49,680 bases of DNA from Anaerolineales bacterium (GTDB lineage: Bacteria > Chloroflexota > Anaerolineae > Anaerolineales > RBG-16-64-43): NCBI GenBank assembly GCA_016932475.1, contig JAFGCU010000119.1, positions 1 to 49,680 of the forward strand, read 5' to 3'. Below the pieces are notes generated by a model that saw only the letters and a program-made list of their open reading frames with translations, did no database searches and had not been told where the DNA came from. The translations under genes and the position numbers were made by a program. The first letter of the stretch is position 1. Every line of letters starts with the position of its first letter. This document shows, piece by piece, positions 5,054 to 49,680 of the stretch.

Positions 5054-5090
5054 GCGGACCCTCCCTTCCCGGCAGTTTATTCCTTATGAG

Positions 5091-5158
5091 CGTCACCCCG
5101 AGCGAAGCGAAGGGTCTGAAAACGCGGGGAAAGATGCTTCGCTTTGCTCAGCATGACG
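5091..5158. repeat. Palindromic repeat, GAGCGAAGCGAAGG type
   Basis: A 68-bp inverted repeat opening CGTCACCCCGAGCGAAGCGA and closing CTTTGCTCAGCATGACG, the arms pairing through GCGAAGC and GCTTCGC. It is the uninterrupted form of the element that carries two insertions at 33641-33838. It fills the gap between the GT-C gene and the SDR gene. Confidence 0.75.
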
Positions 5159-7083: not shown

Positions 7084-7527
7084 TTATCGCGGGGAGAAGG
7101 ATGCATTGATTAAACCACATCCAGGGGGAAGCACACAAACCGGGATGATCGGAGGAATTGTCTTGCCCGCGTCTGCCCTTGCGCCCGCCCCCCGCGAACG
7201 GTTCGTCATCCCCGCGCGGTTTACTCGGAGATCCAGGACTAACTCGAACAAAACCCCAATCCAAAAAGCTGCAATCCCGGAATGCCCGCGCCTGCCCCCG
7301 CGAAAGCATCACAACTCGGTTCTGTTCTTGGAGGCAGGATGCTTGCGAAGCGGGGGCGTGTTCGGCAGGCATCCACGAAAATAATCCTGCGCGGGGTAAG
7401 GCTATGCGGAAAGTTGTTGTGGATTTCCCGAGAAAACCGCCCCGCATCGCATTCATCCCGGCTCATGAACCGGAAGCGGGCCGGGGTGCTCCGCGGGAGC
7501 AGGCTCGGGGATAATGATTTACCCGCA
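7084..7527. repeat. Mosaic of nested palindromic repeats
   Basis: No gene is evident. The gap includes a palindrome at 7294-7357 (GCCCCCGC/GCGGGGGC outer arms, AAGCATC/GATGCTT inner arms). A ~42-bp segment at 7448-7489 (CATCCCGGCTCATGAACC..., then GCGGGCC) recurs in reverse orientation at about 29780-29822. Outer flanks resemble the CGTCATCCCCGCG family. The pattern suggests small elements inserted into one another. Confidence 0.6.
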
Positions 7528-16989: not shown

Positions 16990-17480
16990 GTTTGTGTCCG
17001 TCATTCCGGCGCGGTTTGATCCGTCATTCCGGCACGGCTTGATCCGTCCTTCCGGCATGTTTTTGTTCGTCATCCCGGTGCTTTTTATTCGTCATCCCGG
17101 CGTGATCTCAGCCGGGATCCCTATCTTTGTAATATGCGATCGAATTATTGTTAGAGAAACTCCTGGATGCCGGCCTCGTGCACGCCGACATGACGGATAC
17201 TGAAAAATCCCGGATGCCGGCCTCGTGCACGCCGGCATGACGGATTCTGAAAATTCCTGGATGCCGGCCTCGTGCACGCCGGCATGACGGATACTGAAAA
17301 ATCCCGGATTCCCGAGCCTGCCCCCGTTGGCCAAGTGGTCGTCATCCCGGCGTGATCGTGGCCGGGATCCATAACGCGCCCTTTCATAACCTGCTCCCCC
17401 AATAAAAAAACCTGGATTCCCGCTAAGAACACCCTTGCTTCGCGAGGGCAAGCGCGGGAATGACGATCCCTGTCTACCCC
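16990..17480. repeat. Repeat-dense gap with a 47-bp tandem array
   Basis: Bases 17000-17120 hold several degenerate CGTCATTCCGGCG-type units. From 17165 a 47-bp unit (GGATGCCGGCCTCGTGCACG, then CCGGCATGACGGATACTG) is repeated at 17165, 17212 and 17259, with a diverged fourth start at 17306. Further palindromes lie at 17340-17372 and 17412-17465, the latter containing a small inner hairpin (CCCTTG/CGAGGG). No gene is evident. Confidence 0.75.
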
Positions 17481-29640: not shown

Positions 29641-30060
29641 CAGGATAGACAGGATTTGTATTTCATAAAATTTTCAACTGCGCTGCCTGTCGATCGTCAT
29701 GCCGGCGCCTGTCCCCGCGCCTGCCCTCCGAGCGATGAGCGCCGGCGGTTTCCCGGTGCGAAGTTCTCGCGAGCGGGGACGCATCCCGGCCCGCTTCTGG
29801 TTCATGAGCCGGGATGAACGCAAAGCGGGGGTGAACCTGGCCGGCATCCATAAACCGCGAAAATCACTGGACCCCGGCCTCGAGCACGCCGGGGTGACGG
29901 ACGAAAACGAGCCCGCCGGTGGGACGGGCGAAAACGGACGCGCCCGGATCGTGCATGGGCGATTTTTCCCCCGGAGCAGAGTTGCGCGGCCATGGTACGA
30001 GGGGAAGGTTGATCGGTTATACAAAAAACTGTAAATCCTGAATCCATCTTGTCTATCCTG
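29641..30060. repeat. 420-bp non-coding element with related ends, carrying nested palindromes
   Basis: The left end CAGGATAGACAGGATTT (29641-29657) matches in inverted orientation the right end (CTTGTCTATCCTG at 30048-30060). In between are a CGTCATGCCGGC...GGCCGGCATCC palindrome (about 29697-29850) that carries an inserted element at about 29720-29779, and a second palindrome (GGACCCCGGC...GCCGGGGTGACGG, 29870-29900). No gene or ribosome site. Confidence 0.55.
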
Positions 30061-32252: not shown

Positions 32253-33587
32253 ATGCGCCTGACGACGAAACTCGTGCTGGCCTTCGTACTCCTGCTCCTG
32301 ACCACCCTCGGCGGCGTCGTGCTGTTCACCAACCGGACGGCGGGACGCGAGATGGGCCGCGCGCTCTCGCAGTACGAGATGCTGCCGGATCACATGCTGG
32401 CCCGCGAACTGGCGGCCTATTACAGCGCCAACCAATCCTGGACGGGCGCGGAGAGCGTGCTCTTCTCCCCGGGGCCGTTTCAGGCCAGCCGCAATTACCG
32501 GTTGCTGGTGGTGGCATCGGACGGGACCGTGGTGATCGATACCACCGGCGATCTGACCGGTAAACCCTTCACCTCCCTGCCGGGAACCGCGGCATTCCCG
32601 ATCCGGACGGCGGATCAGATCGTCGGCCAGTTGGTGACTTTCAATGAACCGTTTCGCAAGGGGCCGGAAGAAACGCTGCTCGTGGCGGTTAACCGGGCCC
32701 TCATTTGGACGGCCATCACGGCCGGGATGGCCGGTTTGCTGATCGCGCTCTTTCTCAGCCAGAGCCTGACCTCGCCGCTGCGCCACCTTTCCACCGCCAT
32801 GCAGCGCTTCGCGCGCGGCGAGCGCAACCTTTCTCTGCCGCGCGCCTCCGGGGATGAAGTCGGCGATCTGACGCGGTCCTTCCAGGGGATGATGACCGAA
32901 ATCCATCAGCAGGAAACCCTGCGCAAGGAAATGACGGCCGACATCGCCCATGAATTGCGGACTCCCCTGTCGGTCATCCGCGCCAACGTCGACGCGCTGA
33001 CCGACGGTGTCTACCCGCTGACAAAGAAAAACCTTGCCCCGATCCGCGAGAGCGCGGAACTCCTGGATCGGCTGATCGAGGATCTGCGGACTCTCGAACT
33101 GGCCGACGCCGGCCGGCTGACGCTGGAAAAATCGGAAATCGATTATGCGCGGCTGCTGCAGAGGGTTGCCGCGCGGTTCGCGCCGCGCGCCGAAGGCTGC
33201 GCGCAGAAGATCGAGACCGCCTGCGGCGGGAATCTGCCCGAGGCGATGGCCGACCCGCAAAGGCTGGAGCAGATTCTCAGCAACCTGGTGGATAACGCCC
33301 TGCGTCACACTCCCGACGGCGGCGTCGTCCGCCTGAACGCGGACTCCGACGGGGCGGCGGTCCGGATTACGGTGGATGATTCCGGGCCGGGGATCCCCGC
33401 CGACTCAATCGACCGGATCTTCGAGCGGTTCTACCGGCTGGATTCCGGGCGCGCCCGCGCCGAAGGCGGATCCGGCCTGGGCTTGGCGATCGCGCGCAAG
33501 CTGGCCGAGGCGCACGGCGGCGCCCTCACCGCCGAAAACCGTCCCGAAGGTGGCGCGCGGTTTACGCTTCGATTGCCGGGTAAGTAA
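32253..33587 (+). CDS. Sensor histidine kinase (HAMP, HisKA, HATPase)
   Basis: 444 residues: helix 1 ([19 protein letters not shown]), an extracytoplasmic sensor domain of about 130 residues, helix 2 ([19 protein letters not shown]), HAMP, then HisKA with [20 protein letters not shown] (phospho-His) and ATPase boxes [22 protein letters not shown] and [10 protein letters not shown]. It resembles BaeS-like kinases. The signal is unknown; operon partners with Met-rich and PepSY domains suggest metal or envelope stress. Translation is likely coupled to the regulator stop 3 bp upstream. Confidence 0.93.
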
Positions 33588-33640: not shown

Positions 33641-33838
33641 TGTCACCCTGAGCATCCGCCCCTGAGCGTCCGCCCCCCGAGCGATCAGCATCGGTGATTT
33701 TCCGATGCGAAGAATTCGCGAGTGGGGGCAGCGAAGGGTCTAGACACACAGAAACAGATGCTTCGCTTCCCTCCAAAAAGCGCAGGACAGCCCTGCCCCG
33801 GCTCCGCCGCGGCGAATCCAGGGGCGCTCAGCATGACA
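33641..33838. repeat. GAGCGAAGCGAAGG repeat disrupted by two inserted palindromes
   Basis: Ends (TGTCACCCTGAGC and GCTCAGCATGACA) and core (GCGAAGGGTCTAGA, AGATGCTTCGCTT) match the intact 68-bp element at 5091-5158, but the copy is 198 bp. Insertion 1 (about 33671-33730) has CCCCC/GGGGG and GCATCGG/CCGATGC arms. Insertion 2 (about 33766-33822) opens CCTCCAAAAAGCGCAGG and is also palindromic. Confidence 0.75.
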
Positions 33839-33914
33839 CCACTTTTTTGAGGTTGCAGGTAATAAGACGACCATCGACGATGGACCATGAACGATAGTCA
33901 CATAATATGAAAAG

Positions 33915-33939
33915 CGCCGCTGTAATTAGCGGCGTTTTT
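33915..33939 (+). terminator. Rho-independent terminator
   Basis: CGCCGCT (33915-33921) pairs with AGCGGCG (33928-33934), followed by TTTTTA on the plus strand. It lies 330 bp after the kinase gene, past a repeat, and is the nearest plus-strand terminator for that operon. Confidence 0.65.
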
Positions 33940-33974
33940 ATTTTAAAATTTTTTGTTCCCATGTGCCGGTTGAC

Positions 33975-34140
33975 ATCCCATCCCACCTCCCCAAACCCCT
34001 CCTCCCTTCCCGTTATACGGGAAGGGAGGAGGGGAACGTCCCGAGCGCCTGTCCCCCGAGCGATGAGCATCGGTGAAATTCCGATGCGATGTTTTCGCGA
34101 GTGGGGGCGAGCGAGGGACGGGGGAGGTGGGATGGGATGG
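33975..34140. repeat. Composite three-way-junction palindrome
   Basis: Outer arms CATCCCATCCCACCTCCCC and its complement at 34122-34139 enclose two hairpins. The first is CCCCTCCTCCCTTCCCG/CGGGAAGGGAGGAGGGG, perfect 17 bp with loop TTATA. The second is an element at about 34051-34107 with GTCCCCC...GTGGGGGC and GCATCGG/CCGATGC arms. It lies between convergent genes and could act as a two-way transcript end. Confidence 0.75.
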
Positions 34141-44478: not shown

Positions 44479-44587
44479 CCTAACCCCCTCACCCCACCCT
44501 CTCTCCCTTCGCTTAAGGGAAGGGGGAGAGGGTCGCCAGAGCTTCGGTGTTTCCGAAGAGCAAGCGGGGAGTGGGGATAAGGTCAGG
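44474..44587. repeat. Composite three-way-junction palindrome over the synthase stop
   Basis: Outer arms CCTGACCT (44474-44481) and AGGTCAGG (44580-44587) enclose hairpin 1 (CCCTCTCTCCCTT with AAGGGAAGGGGGAGAGGG) and hairpin 2 (CTTCGG-TGTTT-CCGAAG near 44541-44558, then AGCAAGCGGGGAG). The plan matches the element at 33975-34140. It starts two bases before the synthase stop codon and may end that transcript. Confidence 0.7.
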
Positions 44588-44602
44588 GCCCCGGATCGCC
44601 AA

Positions 44603-44638
44603 AAAACAGGAAACCCCCTTGCGGGGGTTTCCTGTTTT
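44603..44638 (-). terminator. Third copy of the rplL terminator
   Basis: AAAACAGGAAACCCCC pairs with GGGGGTTTCCTGTTTT around loop TTGC, a perfect 16-bp stem nearly identical to the terminator of rplL at 49452-49481. It now lies 82 bp after the WD40 gene on the minus strand, which it probably serves. Confidence 0.8.
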
Positions 44639-44702
44639 ATGGCGGATGGAGTTACTTGACTTCGACGCTCGCGCCAGCGGCCTCGAGCTTAGCCTTACTT
44701 AA
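44639..44702 (-). pseudogene. Decayed 3' end of rplL (copy 3)
   Basis: About 60 bp adjoining the terminator copy read GGATGGAGTTACTTGACTTC, then CTCGCGCC, then GCGGCCTCGAGCTTAGCCTT, matching the last codons of rplL and its trailer at 49489-49543 with a few substitutions. Identity ends abruptly near 44700, just before the WD40 gene stop. Confidence 0.82.
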
Positions 44703-44720: not shown

Positions 44721-46751
44721 CTAGATAATCCCCCACAGACTGATGGTACCGTCCCATGATCCCGAGACCAGCAGCTTTCCATCCGGCGAGAAAGATACGA
44801 AGGTTACCGGCCCGCCATGCATTACCTGTTTCCATACCAGCTTTCCATCCGGGAAACTCCAGACCTTGATGGTTCCGTCATGCGATCCCGAAGCGAGCAG
44901 TTCTCCGTCCGGCGAGAAGGATATGCTCCAAAAATTACTCCCCCCCAACCACCGCAACAGCGTTCCGTCAGCCACCTTCCAGATCCAGATCGTTCCATCA
45001 TGATAGCTCGAGGCGATGTACTCCCCATTCGGGGAAAAGGATATTTTCGATGAGGATCCTGTAAATCCACTCAGTGTACGCAACAGCGTGCCGGTGGAAA
45101 CGTCCCAGAGTTCTACATCTCCAGACCACCCAGACCGTAAAGCCAGCAGTTTTCCGTCGGGCGAAAAGGCTGGTTCGTCGGAATTTATGCTGTCCAGCGA
45201 TCGAGCGAGAGTGCCATCCGCGACATTCCAGATTTTTCCCGATCCCGATGCCAGCAGCTTTCCATCCGGGGAGAAGGAGACACCCCCCGAATCATCCTCA
45301 AAAATTCTTTCCACCTTGCCATCCGCGACATTCCAGATCCTGATCGTCTTGTCTCCATGCGATGCTGATGCCAGCAACCGTCCATCCGGCGAGAAGGATA
45401 CTTGCGATGCACAGCCTGTATGCCCCTGCAGCGTCCGGATCAACATTCCATTCGCGACATTCCATATCTGAACACCATTTAGGTGCTCTGATCCCGAAGC
45501 AAAAAGTTTTCCGTCTGGCGCGAAAGAAATGTCGGATACCCAACCCAATTCCAGCCCCAATATATTCACCAATTTGCCGTCGTCGACATTCCATATCCCG
45601 ATAGCGCCAACGTCCGAACTCGAAGCCAAATGCCGTCCATCCGGCGAAAAAGACAGCAAATAAGCAGCCCCATGAATCATTCGAATCAACGTCCCATCCA
45701 CGACATTCCAGATATTGATTTTGGGATCAAAGGCCGAGTCCGAGGCCAGCAATGCTCCATCGGGGGAAAAGGATATGCAGCTTACACCATTTGAAATGGT
45801 TCTTTCTCCTTCCGGAAGCTCCCTCATCGTGTGTAATAAGGCACCGTTGATGACCTTCCAAATCCTAACCGTGGCATCCCCTGATCCCGAAGCCAACAAT
45901 TTACCATCCGGAGAGAAGGCCACACTATCCACGTCCCCGGCATGCCCTTCCAGTGTTCGGATTAGGCCGCCATCCGCAAAATTCCAGATCTTAATCACCT
46001 CATCACACGAACCCGAGGCCAACAACTTGCCATCCGGCGAGAAGGATACGCTTTCCACCCGATCGGTATGCCCTTCCAAGGTCCGCAGTAATTCGCCGTC
46101 CGCGACATTCCAGATCTTAATCGCCTTGTCATCCGAACCCGAAGCCAGCAGTTGGCCATCCGGCGAGAAGGAAACGCTCTCCACAGCGTCGGTATGCCCA
46201 TCCATTTTCCACACCAGAGCGCCATCGGCGGTATTCCAGATACTGATTGATCCGCGCTCGGATCCCGTTGCCAGCAGCCCGCCATCCGGCGAGATGGACA
46301 TAATTCCGCCGTTGGATTCTGTGACAGGTTCCGTAATATTCTTGTGGGTTACCTTTCCGGAAGCAACTTCATATAAATCGACCCCCCGGCTATGCGCAGC
46401 CGCAATGGTTTTTCCATCCTGCAAATAAACAAGCTGACGGATATACCCCGATCCAATCCGCCCCCATTCCCCAATATCAGAAATGCTATTGGAGGTGATG
46501 GGACGAGTAAGCGGCGGAAACGGTATCGGCGTGTTTTGCGGAGGGAGGGTTTCCGACTGCGTATACGTTAGAGTCGGAGAAGGAGACGATCTGCGGGTGC
46601 GGGTGGTGGTGCGGGTGCGCGTGGGTGACGGCACCGCGCTCAACCTCGCCGGGTAAGACGGAGTCGGCTGCATGGAAGGGATCCCGTTGCAAGCCGAAAC
46701 GAGAGCGGCAACGATACAGACGATCGGGGTGAGAATTAATTTAGTTTTCAA
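44721..46751 (-). CDS. WD40 lipoprotein with 14 repeats
   Basis: 676 residues: lipoprotein signal ending ALVSAC (Cys near 21), a Pro/Thr/Ser/Arg-rich spacer to about residue 85, then 14 WD40 units with the pattern VSFSPDGKLLASGS, IKIWNVADG and RTLEGH. Fourteen units suggest two seven-blade propellers. It is a binding scaffold outside the cytoplasm; no enzyme domain. The start codon is TTG at 46751 (AAGGAG about ten bases upstream), chosen because no in-frame ATG precedes the signal. The highly similar repeats suggest recent expansion. A truncated copy of its first ~85 codons lies at 49080-49395. Confidence 0.88.
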   Translation of the reverse strand: MKTKLILTPIVCIVAALVSACNGIPSMQPTPSYPARLSAVPSPTRTRTTTRTRRSSPSPTLTYTQSETLPPQNTPIPFPPLTRPITSNSISDIGEWGRIGSGYIRQLVYLQDGKTIAAAHSRGVDLYEVASGKVTHKNITEPVTESNGGIMSISPDGGLLATGSERGSISIWNTADGALVWKMDGHTDAVESVSFSPDGQLLASGSDDKAIKIWNVADGELLRTLEGHTDRVESVSFSPDGKLLASGSCDEVIKIWNFADGGLIRTLEGHAGDVDSVAFSPDGKLLASGSGDATVRIWKVINGALLHTMRELPEGERTISNGVSCISFSPDGALLASDSAFDPKINIWNVVDGTLIRMIHGAAYLLSFSPDGRHLASSSDVGAIGIWNVDDGKLVNILGLELGWVSDISFAPDGKLFASGSEHLNGVQIWNVANGMLIRTLQGHTGCASQVSFSPDGRLLASASHGDKTIRIWNVADGKVERIFEDDSGGVSFSPDGKLLASGSGKIWNVADGTLARSLDSINSDEPAFSPDGKLLALRSGWSGDVELWDVSTGTLLRTLSGFTGSSSKISFSPNGEYIASSYHDGTIWIWKVADGTLLRWLGGSNFWSISFSPDGELLASGSHDGTIKVWSFPDGKLVWKQVMHGGPVTFVSFSPDGKLLVSGSWDGTISLWGII

Positions 46752-47228
46752 TACCTCTCATCTCCTTCGCAAATGTTTTCGCCCGTTACTTGGCCAATAA
46801 ATTATATTCTTTTACGGCTATCTACAAATAAATCCTGATCTCCGGGAACCTCCGAAAGACCTTTGAAAACATGGCGATTGCTTGGCGAATGTCAAGAAAT
46901 AGGGGATTCTACCGGGGATATAGTTGCCTAAAAGAAGACCCTTCTTTGATTTACAGTTAACTTTATTTTCACATTTTTATTACCACAAAGACACTAAGGC
47001 ACAAAGTTTTTCAATTTATTACCAGGCTTCGTGTCTTTGCGTCTTAGTGCCTTTATGACTTTACGCCTAAGTGTCTTCGTGCCTTTGTAGTGAAATAACC
47101 ATTACTGAAGAGTGATGCTTGGAAAACAATGAAATGTATACTTGACGCCATGCATTAATTAAAGCAGATTTTTATCCTGCTCCAGATAACACTAGCGATT
47201 CATATGCCGCTTTCCCGAGACAGGATTA
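46752..47228. repeat. AT-rich gap with CACAAAGACACTAAGGC-type inverted repeats
   Basis: At 46981-47098 are several units of an ~25-bp repeat: ACCACAAAGACACTAAGGCA on one strand, then GTGTCTTTGCGTCTTAGTGC and AGTGTCTTCGTGCCTTTGTA in the opposite sense. No gene found; base composition is clearly lower in GC than the neighbours. Confidence 0.65.
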
Positions 47229-47264
47229 AAAACCAGAAACCCCCTTGCGGGGGTTTCTGGTTTT
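47229..47264 (-). terminator. Second copy of the rplL terminator
   Basis: AAAACCAGAAACCCCC pairs with GGGGGTTTCTGGTTTT, loop TTGC. The stem differs from the other two copies by one compensated base pair, so pairing has been kept. Confidence 0.78.
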
Positions 47265-49442: not shown

Positions 49443-49481
49443 TAAAAAAACACAGGAAACCCCCTTGCGGGGGTTTCCTGT
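49443..49481 (-). terminator. Rho-independent terminator of rplL
   Basis: ACAGGAAACCCCC (49452-49464) pairs with GGGGGTTTCCTGT (49469-49481), loop TTGC. On the minus strand a run of seven T (49444-49450) follows after GTG. It ends 17 bp after the rplL stop. Confidence 0.9.
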
Positions 49482-49497
49482 TTTATTTTGGATGGAG

Positions 49498-49680
49498 TTA
49501 CTTGACTTCCACGGCCGCGCCGGCGGCCTCGAGCTTGGCCTTGGCATCGGCGGCGACTTCCTTGGTGACCGCATCGAGGACCTTGGCGCCGGCGGTCTCG
49601 GTCAGGTCCTTGGCTTCCTTGAGCCCGAGGCTCGTCAGCTGCCGGACGACGCGGATGACGTCGATCTTCTTCGCGCCGGC
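49498..49680 (-). CDS. rplL: Ribosomal protein L7/L12, C-terminal part (runs off the window)
   Basis: The last 60 codons of rpl[40 protein letters not shown] and [14 protein letters not shown], the C-terminal domain of the ribosomal stalk protein that contacts translation factors. The TAA stop is at 49498-49500; the start lies beyond 49680. Usually rplL follows rplJ and can precede rpoB; here accessory genes follow instead, after a strong terminator. Two decayed copies of this 3' end occur at 47265-47310 and 44639-44702. Confidence 0.95.

Follow-up and report, generated by a model that had tools for sequence, protein, structure and literature searches.

REPs lying within other palindromes, insertion sequences that target REPs, and tiny mobile hairpins of mitochondria are already known. 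The first are represented by GTAG-15 in Anabaena variabilis, GTAG-23 in Thermomicrobium roseum, and CGTC-1 dimers in H. neapolitanus (PMC3733652); the target palindrome of GTAG-23 is present in hundreds of copies, and T. roseum belongs to the Chloroflexota (PMC3733652). The same report describes CGTC-tagged REPs as being without a dedicated transposase. IS1397, ISKpn1, and IS621 are insertion sequences targeting REPs (PMC1525189), and the GC clusters or repetitive hairpin-forming elements of mitochondria are tiny non-coding hairpins that spread, merge, and cluster (PMC4478555, PMC2800124).

The window analyzed here, a 49,680-nt stretch (contig C23) of a 3.65-Mb Anaerolineae MAG in 129 contigs (97.8% complete), resembles the REPs-in-palindromes systems (PMC3733652) in that short tagged hairpins lie within other palindromes, but the tag is CCTG or CCCG and several unrelated hosts are occupied; exact insertion after loop nucleotide 1, self-nesting, and additive loop lengths, all observed here, are undescribed in that report. 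The commonest host is a CGTC repeat that shares an 8-bp stem and a CCA tail with the CGTC-tagged REPs (PMC3733652), yet its loop is 9 nt in place of 4-5 nt and it is the host and not the insert. With the RAYT/REP and IS200/IS605 systems (PMC2817692, PMC6006769) the elements share tag-plus-hairpin anatomy, flush insertion, and a likely single-strand substrate, and they differ in that none of the RAYT genes found in these genomes has this hairpin beside it and in lacking GTAG; a hairpin of 20-40 bp with a 4-nt unpaired tag, as in RAYT/GTAG-type REPs, is found (21 bp), the tag being CCTG/CCCG. Inverted arms are present as in MITEs, but comparison with exact empty sites reveals no target-site duplication. 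IS1397, ISKpn1, and IS621 likewise use palindromic repeats as targets (PMC1525189), but they are complete insertion sequences that have transposases of their own, whereas the inserts here are 21-60 bp long and non-coding. The mitochondrial GC clusters, similar in size and habit, carry short flanking repeats resembling target duplications, and the parts of those sources available to us make no mention of the hairpin-tip targeting seen here (PMC4478555, PMC2800124). A limited literature search returned no report in which several unrelated hairpins are entered at a single loop position, with additive loops and self-nesting; the precision at hairpin tips, the quantised nesting, and the self-targeting look new.

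An element family with fixed ends

The repeats at 33641-34140 are intergenic, flanked on one side by a histidine kinase gene (32253-33587) and on the other by a convergent cyclase-like ORF. The features delineated in the window are listed in Table 1, in which ^ marks an insertion point.

Table 1. Host hairpins and inserted elements of the window
Feature	Positions	Strand	Remarks
68-bp host palindrome TGTCACCCTGAGC...GCTCAGCATGACA, one insert per arm (33654-33729, 33769-33824)	33641..33838	+	intact copies at 5090-5158, L063
60-bp element (form A) in left arm of 68-bp host	33669..33728	+	preceded by partial element 33654-33668
Second insert, 56 bp, in right arm of 68-bp host, between GAGCG and AAGCG (minus-strand reading)	33769..33824	-	
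Large host hairpin CATCCCATCCCACCTCCCC...GGGGGAGGTGGGATGGGATG with two inner hairpins	33974..34139	+	DNA fold z -11.7
60-bp element (form A) in tip CGTCCCGAGCG^...^CGAGCGAGGGACG	34048..34107	+	empty tip GTCCCGAGCGAATGCGAGGGAC at L177, same genome
Four-part Russian doll, outer part a CGTC-type repeat	29695..29849	+	21-bp element split 29708-29719 / 29823-29831; form A 29720-29778; ~44-bp form B 29779-29822
CGTC-type repeat with bare 21-bp element CTTGCCCTCGCGAAGCAAGGG in loop (17432-17452)	17414..17465	-	
21-bp element CCTGCCCCCGCG..AAGCGGGGG with 45-bp form-B hairpin (7303-7347) in tip	7291..7356	+	host a degenerate CGTC-type repeat
68-bp host palindrome, empty (uninterrupted)	5090..5158	+	

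The smallest family member is 21 bp long, CCTG + CCCTCGC-GAA-GCGGGGG, and comprises a 4-nt tag, a 7-bp stem, and a GAA loop; larger members measure about 44 bp (form B) and 60 bp (form A), and all are built from an unpaired CCTG or CCCG tag followed by a C-rich stem and the tip GCGAAGC or an elaboration of it. The 60-bp form gave 41 BLAST matches across the window genome, and the genome-wide search with the inner core that an initial annotation of this DNA had called for returned 43+32 matches vs. 2+1 for the reversed pattern. The 21-bp pattern occurred 16 times in the window genome, 45 times in G001 (same genus), and 10 times in G003 (same family), all three being draft assemblies of 110-140 contigs, and never as the reversed-pattern control; it was absent from 38 other relatives and from 200 more genomes sampled from the phylum. 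The repeat family is not due to chance, and among the genomes searched it occurs in just three, all of a single bacterial family. A relaxed pattern search of a named contig collection yielded three stretches from an Anaerolineae MAG from fen and one Rhizobiales record, the latter rejected as a family member because recognisable element boundaries are absent. Comparison with Rfam gave nothing near the gathering score of any family.

The phenomenon exceeds the extent given in the initial annotation, which had missed the bare copy at 17432-17452 (-). That annotation had correctly recognized the 68-bp element as recurring with two inserts, which lie one in each arm, had placed a CCCCC/GGGGG element inside different host repeats, which are indeed of distinct kinds at 34048-34107 and 29720-29778, and had listed a relative at 7294-7357 that proved to be a member (7291-7356) with a 45-bp hairpin in the tip of a 21-bp element. 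The inner arms ascribed to the 29720 copy (GCATCGG/CCGATGC) were incorrect: the element is present, but its arms read GCGCCGG/CCGGTGC and it belongs to a sister subfamily. The possible relative at 44532-44575 is like the innermost hairpin alone, and its membership is doubtful. The insert at 33769-33824 occupies the same site in the 68-bp palindrome arm, yet it is a different, unclassified hairpin sequence.

Probable insertion at hairpin tips

Elements follow loop nucleotide 1 in the tip of a second hairpin, in most cases at GCG^. The search for filled and empty sites produced empty counterparts, exact or near-exact, and base-exact for several unrelated hosts. CGTC repeats are present both empty (9-nt loop) and filled (longer loop). 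The 68-bp palindrome is empty at window position 5090 and at L063; at GAGCG^AAGCG it holds different inserts at L064/L079, L071, and L072, and at window position 33641 both of its arms are filled. The hairpin GTCCCGAGCG^AATGCGAGGGAC is empty at L177 and filled at window position 34048 and at L102 (G001); TCTCCCAGCG^TATGCTGGGAGA is empty at L170 and filled, base-identical, at L085; and CTCGCCCGGCG^AAGCCGGGGCGGG is empty at L186 and filled at L078 (G001). One example of a host hairpin is TCTCCCAGCGTATGCTGGGAGA. The same elements occur singly in no fewer than five unrelated hosts for which empty counterparts exist; every empty site is paralogous, so that insertion is deduced from paralogous sites. 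The corresponding intergenic region of G001 has diverged too far for an orthologous comparison, and no orthologous locus was seen both filled and empty. Junctions are flush against the empty sites and none requires a target duplication; the GAGC or AGC letters that had been taken as a hint of one are host hairpin stem. Shared boundaries and empty-site counterparts support the earlier proposal of a non-autonomous palindromic element preferring hairpins as targets.

Hairpin targeting was also assessed with a flank-blind set comprising nearly all 21-bp copies with flanks from the three genomes (61 unique sites, those in one host family being not fully independent of each other). GCG directly preceded 44 of the 61 copies, matching the IS200/IS605 pattern of insertion 3' of a fixed short motif without duplication. 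Twenty of the 61 lay at loop nucleotide 1 of a perfect stem with 7 or more base pairs vs. 0.16 expected, an expectation taken from all GCG positions in the window-genome sample and thus from that genome's background only, and four G001 copies (L222, L232, L252, and L261) lay within perfect 20-bp stems. A mismatch-tolerant stem test was positive for 7 of 25 copies vs. a background of 2.8%. RNAfold flank pairing did not discriminate (5.82 pairs vs. 5.83 with permuted flanks), and some copies, e.g. L246, L275, and L264, are at sites without a clear hairpin.

Candidate mechanism and mobilizing enzyme

Comparison of the copies establishes, in sequence terms, a family with fixed ends, an exact insertion point, empty sites, unrelated hosts, and self-nesting. 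The inserts are probably a non-autonomous family of tagged hairpins that insert flush after the first loop nucleotide of hairpins closed by G-C or C-G and that nest recursively. Elements would enter without duplication, mostly at GCG^, and later copies would enter the tips of earlier copies, such that nested hairpins grow from inside. Fixed ends, flush junctions, and a short loop motif in a hairpin together suggest that a tip-reading enzyme joins DNA that is single-stranded or extruded; the inserts may move as hairpins, either single-stranded or extruded, and the joining could be carried out by a HUH-type (RAYT/IS200-like) single-strand transposase or by another enzyme that reads hairpin tips. 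More tentatively, and with somewhat less than even weight, we suggest that the elements constitute a separate superfamily of miniature elements, with DNA shape plus a short motif as target and with recursive self-nesting by an enzyme or repair route new for REPs.

The search for a RAYT/Y1 gene that the initial annotation had recommended was successful in part: RAYT-like (Y1) genes are present, three in the window genome and others in the sister species, but none of those found in G000 and G001 is flanked by this hairpin, and the adjoining repeats differ. Assignment of a RAYT as the cognate transposase by adjacency is therefore unsupported. The repeats beside the RAYT-like genes L061, L196, and L197, all of one genome, are different ones, namely GACCTGTCAGGTC, GGTTCC/AAGGGTTCC arrays, and many GACCGACGCGGT units.

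The main rival is a repair or replication accident requiring no transposase. SbcCD opens extruded hairpins on the loop's 5' side, and a break made in this way might be healed by template-switch copying or by capture of another hairpin. The 5' position of the insertion point in the loop, the absence of a target duplication, the SbcD encoded in the genome, and the failure to find a dedicated transposase are all consistent with such a route, which accounts for position but not for the fixed donor ends: the ends (CCTG...GGGGG) and lengths (21, ~44, and 60) are constant in unrelated hosts, whereas microhomology capture should vary the ends. Furthermore, the family was found in only three genomes of one family among those searched, whereas 13 of 14 controls have SbcD. 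We consider the repair route unlikely. Under the preferred reading of a mobile tagged hairpin, the base-exact filled and empty tips, together with the 21-bp minimal form, provide a testable substrate for how REP-like hairpins move; the element would provide a route for long imperfect palindromes to grow from within, and may reflect a natural activity inserting at folded single-stranded DNA.

Quantised loops and self-nesting

CGTC was the commonest tag before stems of at least 8 bp in the 848-kb sample of the window genome surveyed for host repeats (29 cases), and the commonest host has the form CGTC-ATNCCNGC-loop-GCNGGNAT-CCA, with the tag, the 8-9 bp stem starting AT, and the CCA tail of CGTC-tagged REPs. 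Its loop was exactly 9 nt in 30 repeats, and the next class was exactly 30 nt (9+21; four copies), in which CCTGCCCTCGCGAAGCGGGGG or close variants follow nucleotide 1 of a 9-nt loop; chance matches aside, no CGTC-repeat loops fell between the two lengths. Further classes occurred at 69 (9+60), 73/74 (9+21+43/44), and 133/134 (9+21+44+60) nt, and loops of 122 and 146 nt deviate by one 12-nt half-unit. Across the whole genome 51 CGTC repeats ran directly into GCG+CC(C/T)GCCC, as against 0 for the reversed pattern. The sole CGTC+CCYGCCC match in another member of the class (G243) was rejected, being a truncated REP adjoining a second REP. No long coding relative was seen within a CGTC-type repeat in the genome sample. 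Elsewhere in the window, three CGTC-type repeats form a 47-bp tandem array (17157-17312).

Many copies are located in the tip of another copy, with up to five balanced levels; copies nest in copies because the element's own tip, GCG^AAGC, is a target site. Half-units to the left (12-mers) and right (9-mers) of the innermost copy, on opposite sides of the center, were counted at 53 loci: their numbers were correlated (Spearman 0.78) and were equal at 39 of the 53 loci vs. 22.3 in permutations (maximum 34). At L245 (G001) a CGTC-type repeat encloses five units to the left and five to the right, and L242 has two units inside a TCTCCTGG hairpin. Large composites, with ~20 copies in G000, have probably spread in part as units, and for this reason nested copies cannot each be counted as an independent event.

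Alternatively, composites might have been built once and then amplified whole as large REPs, making the nesting a record of old events with no current tip preference. The ~20 G000 copies that share a composite of CGTC repeat, 21-bp, 60-bp, and 44-bp elements fit this account, but it is quite improbable given that single elements occupy five or more unrelated hosts that also exist empty and that nesting depth ranges from one to five among loci. Stepwise hairpin expansion by slippage or gene conversion within long inverted repeats, with no insertion at all, is suggested by short, G+C-rich, near-tandem units but is very hard to credit, since tandem slippage would not balance 12-mer and 9-mer numbers, the loop classes are discrete, and the same insert is present in unrelated hosts.

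Other repeats

The G001 loci L105, L110, L112, and L128, among others, carry a large asymmetric hairpin family, CATCCCATCCYACCTCCCC..CCCCTCCTCCCTTCCCGT.., in which a constant inner hairpin is accompanied, on either side, by a variable second inner sequence. In the window, the 3' end of an L7/L12 ribosomal protein gene plus its terminator is present twice (44601-44696 and 49447-49542; 91% copy); the L7/L12 C-terminus is encoded at 49498-49680 (-), the copy of its 3' end lies just downstream of a WD40-repeat ORF (44721-46751, -), and a third copy, of just the terminator, lies at 47228-47264.
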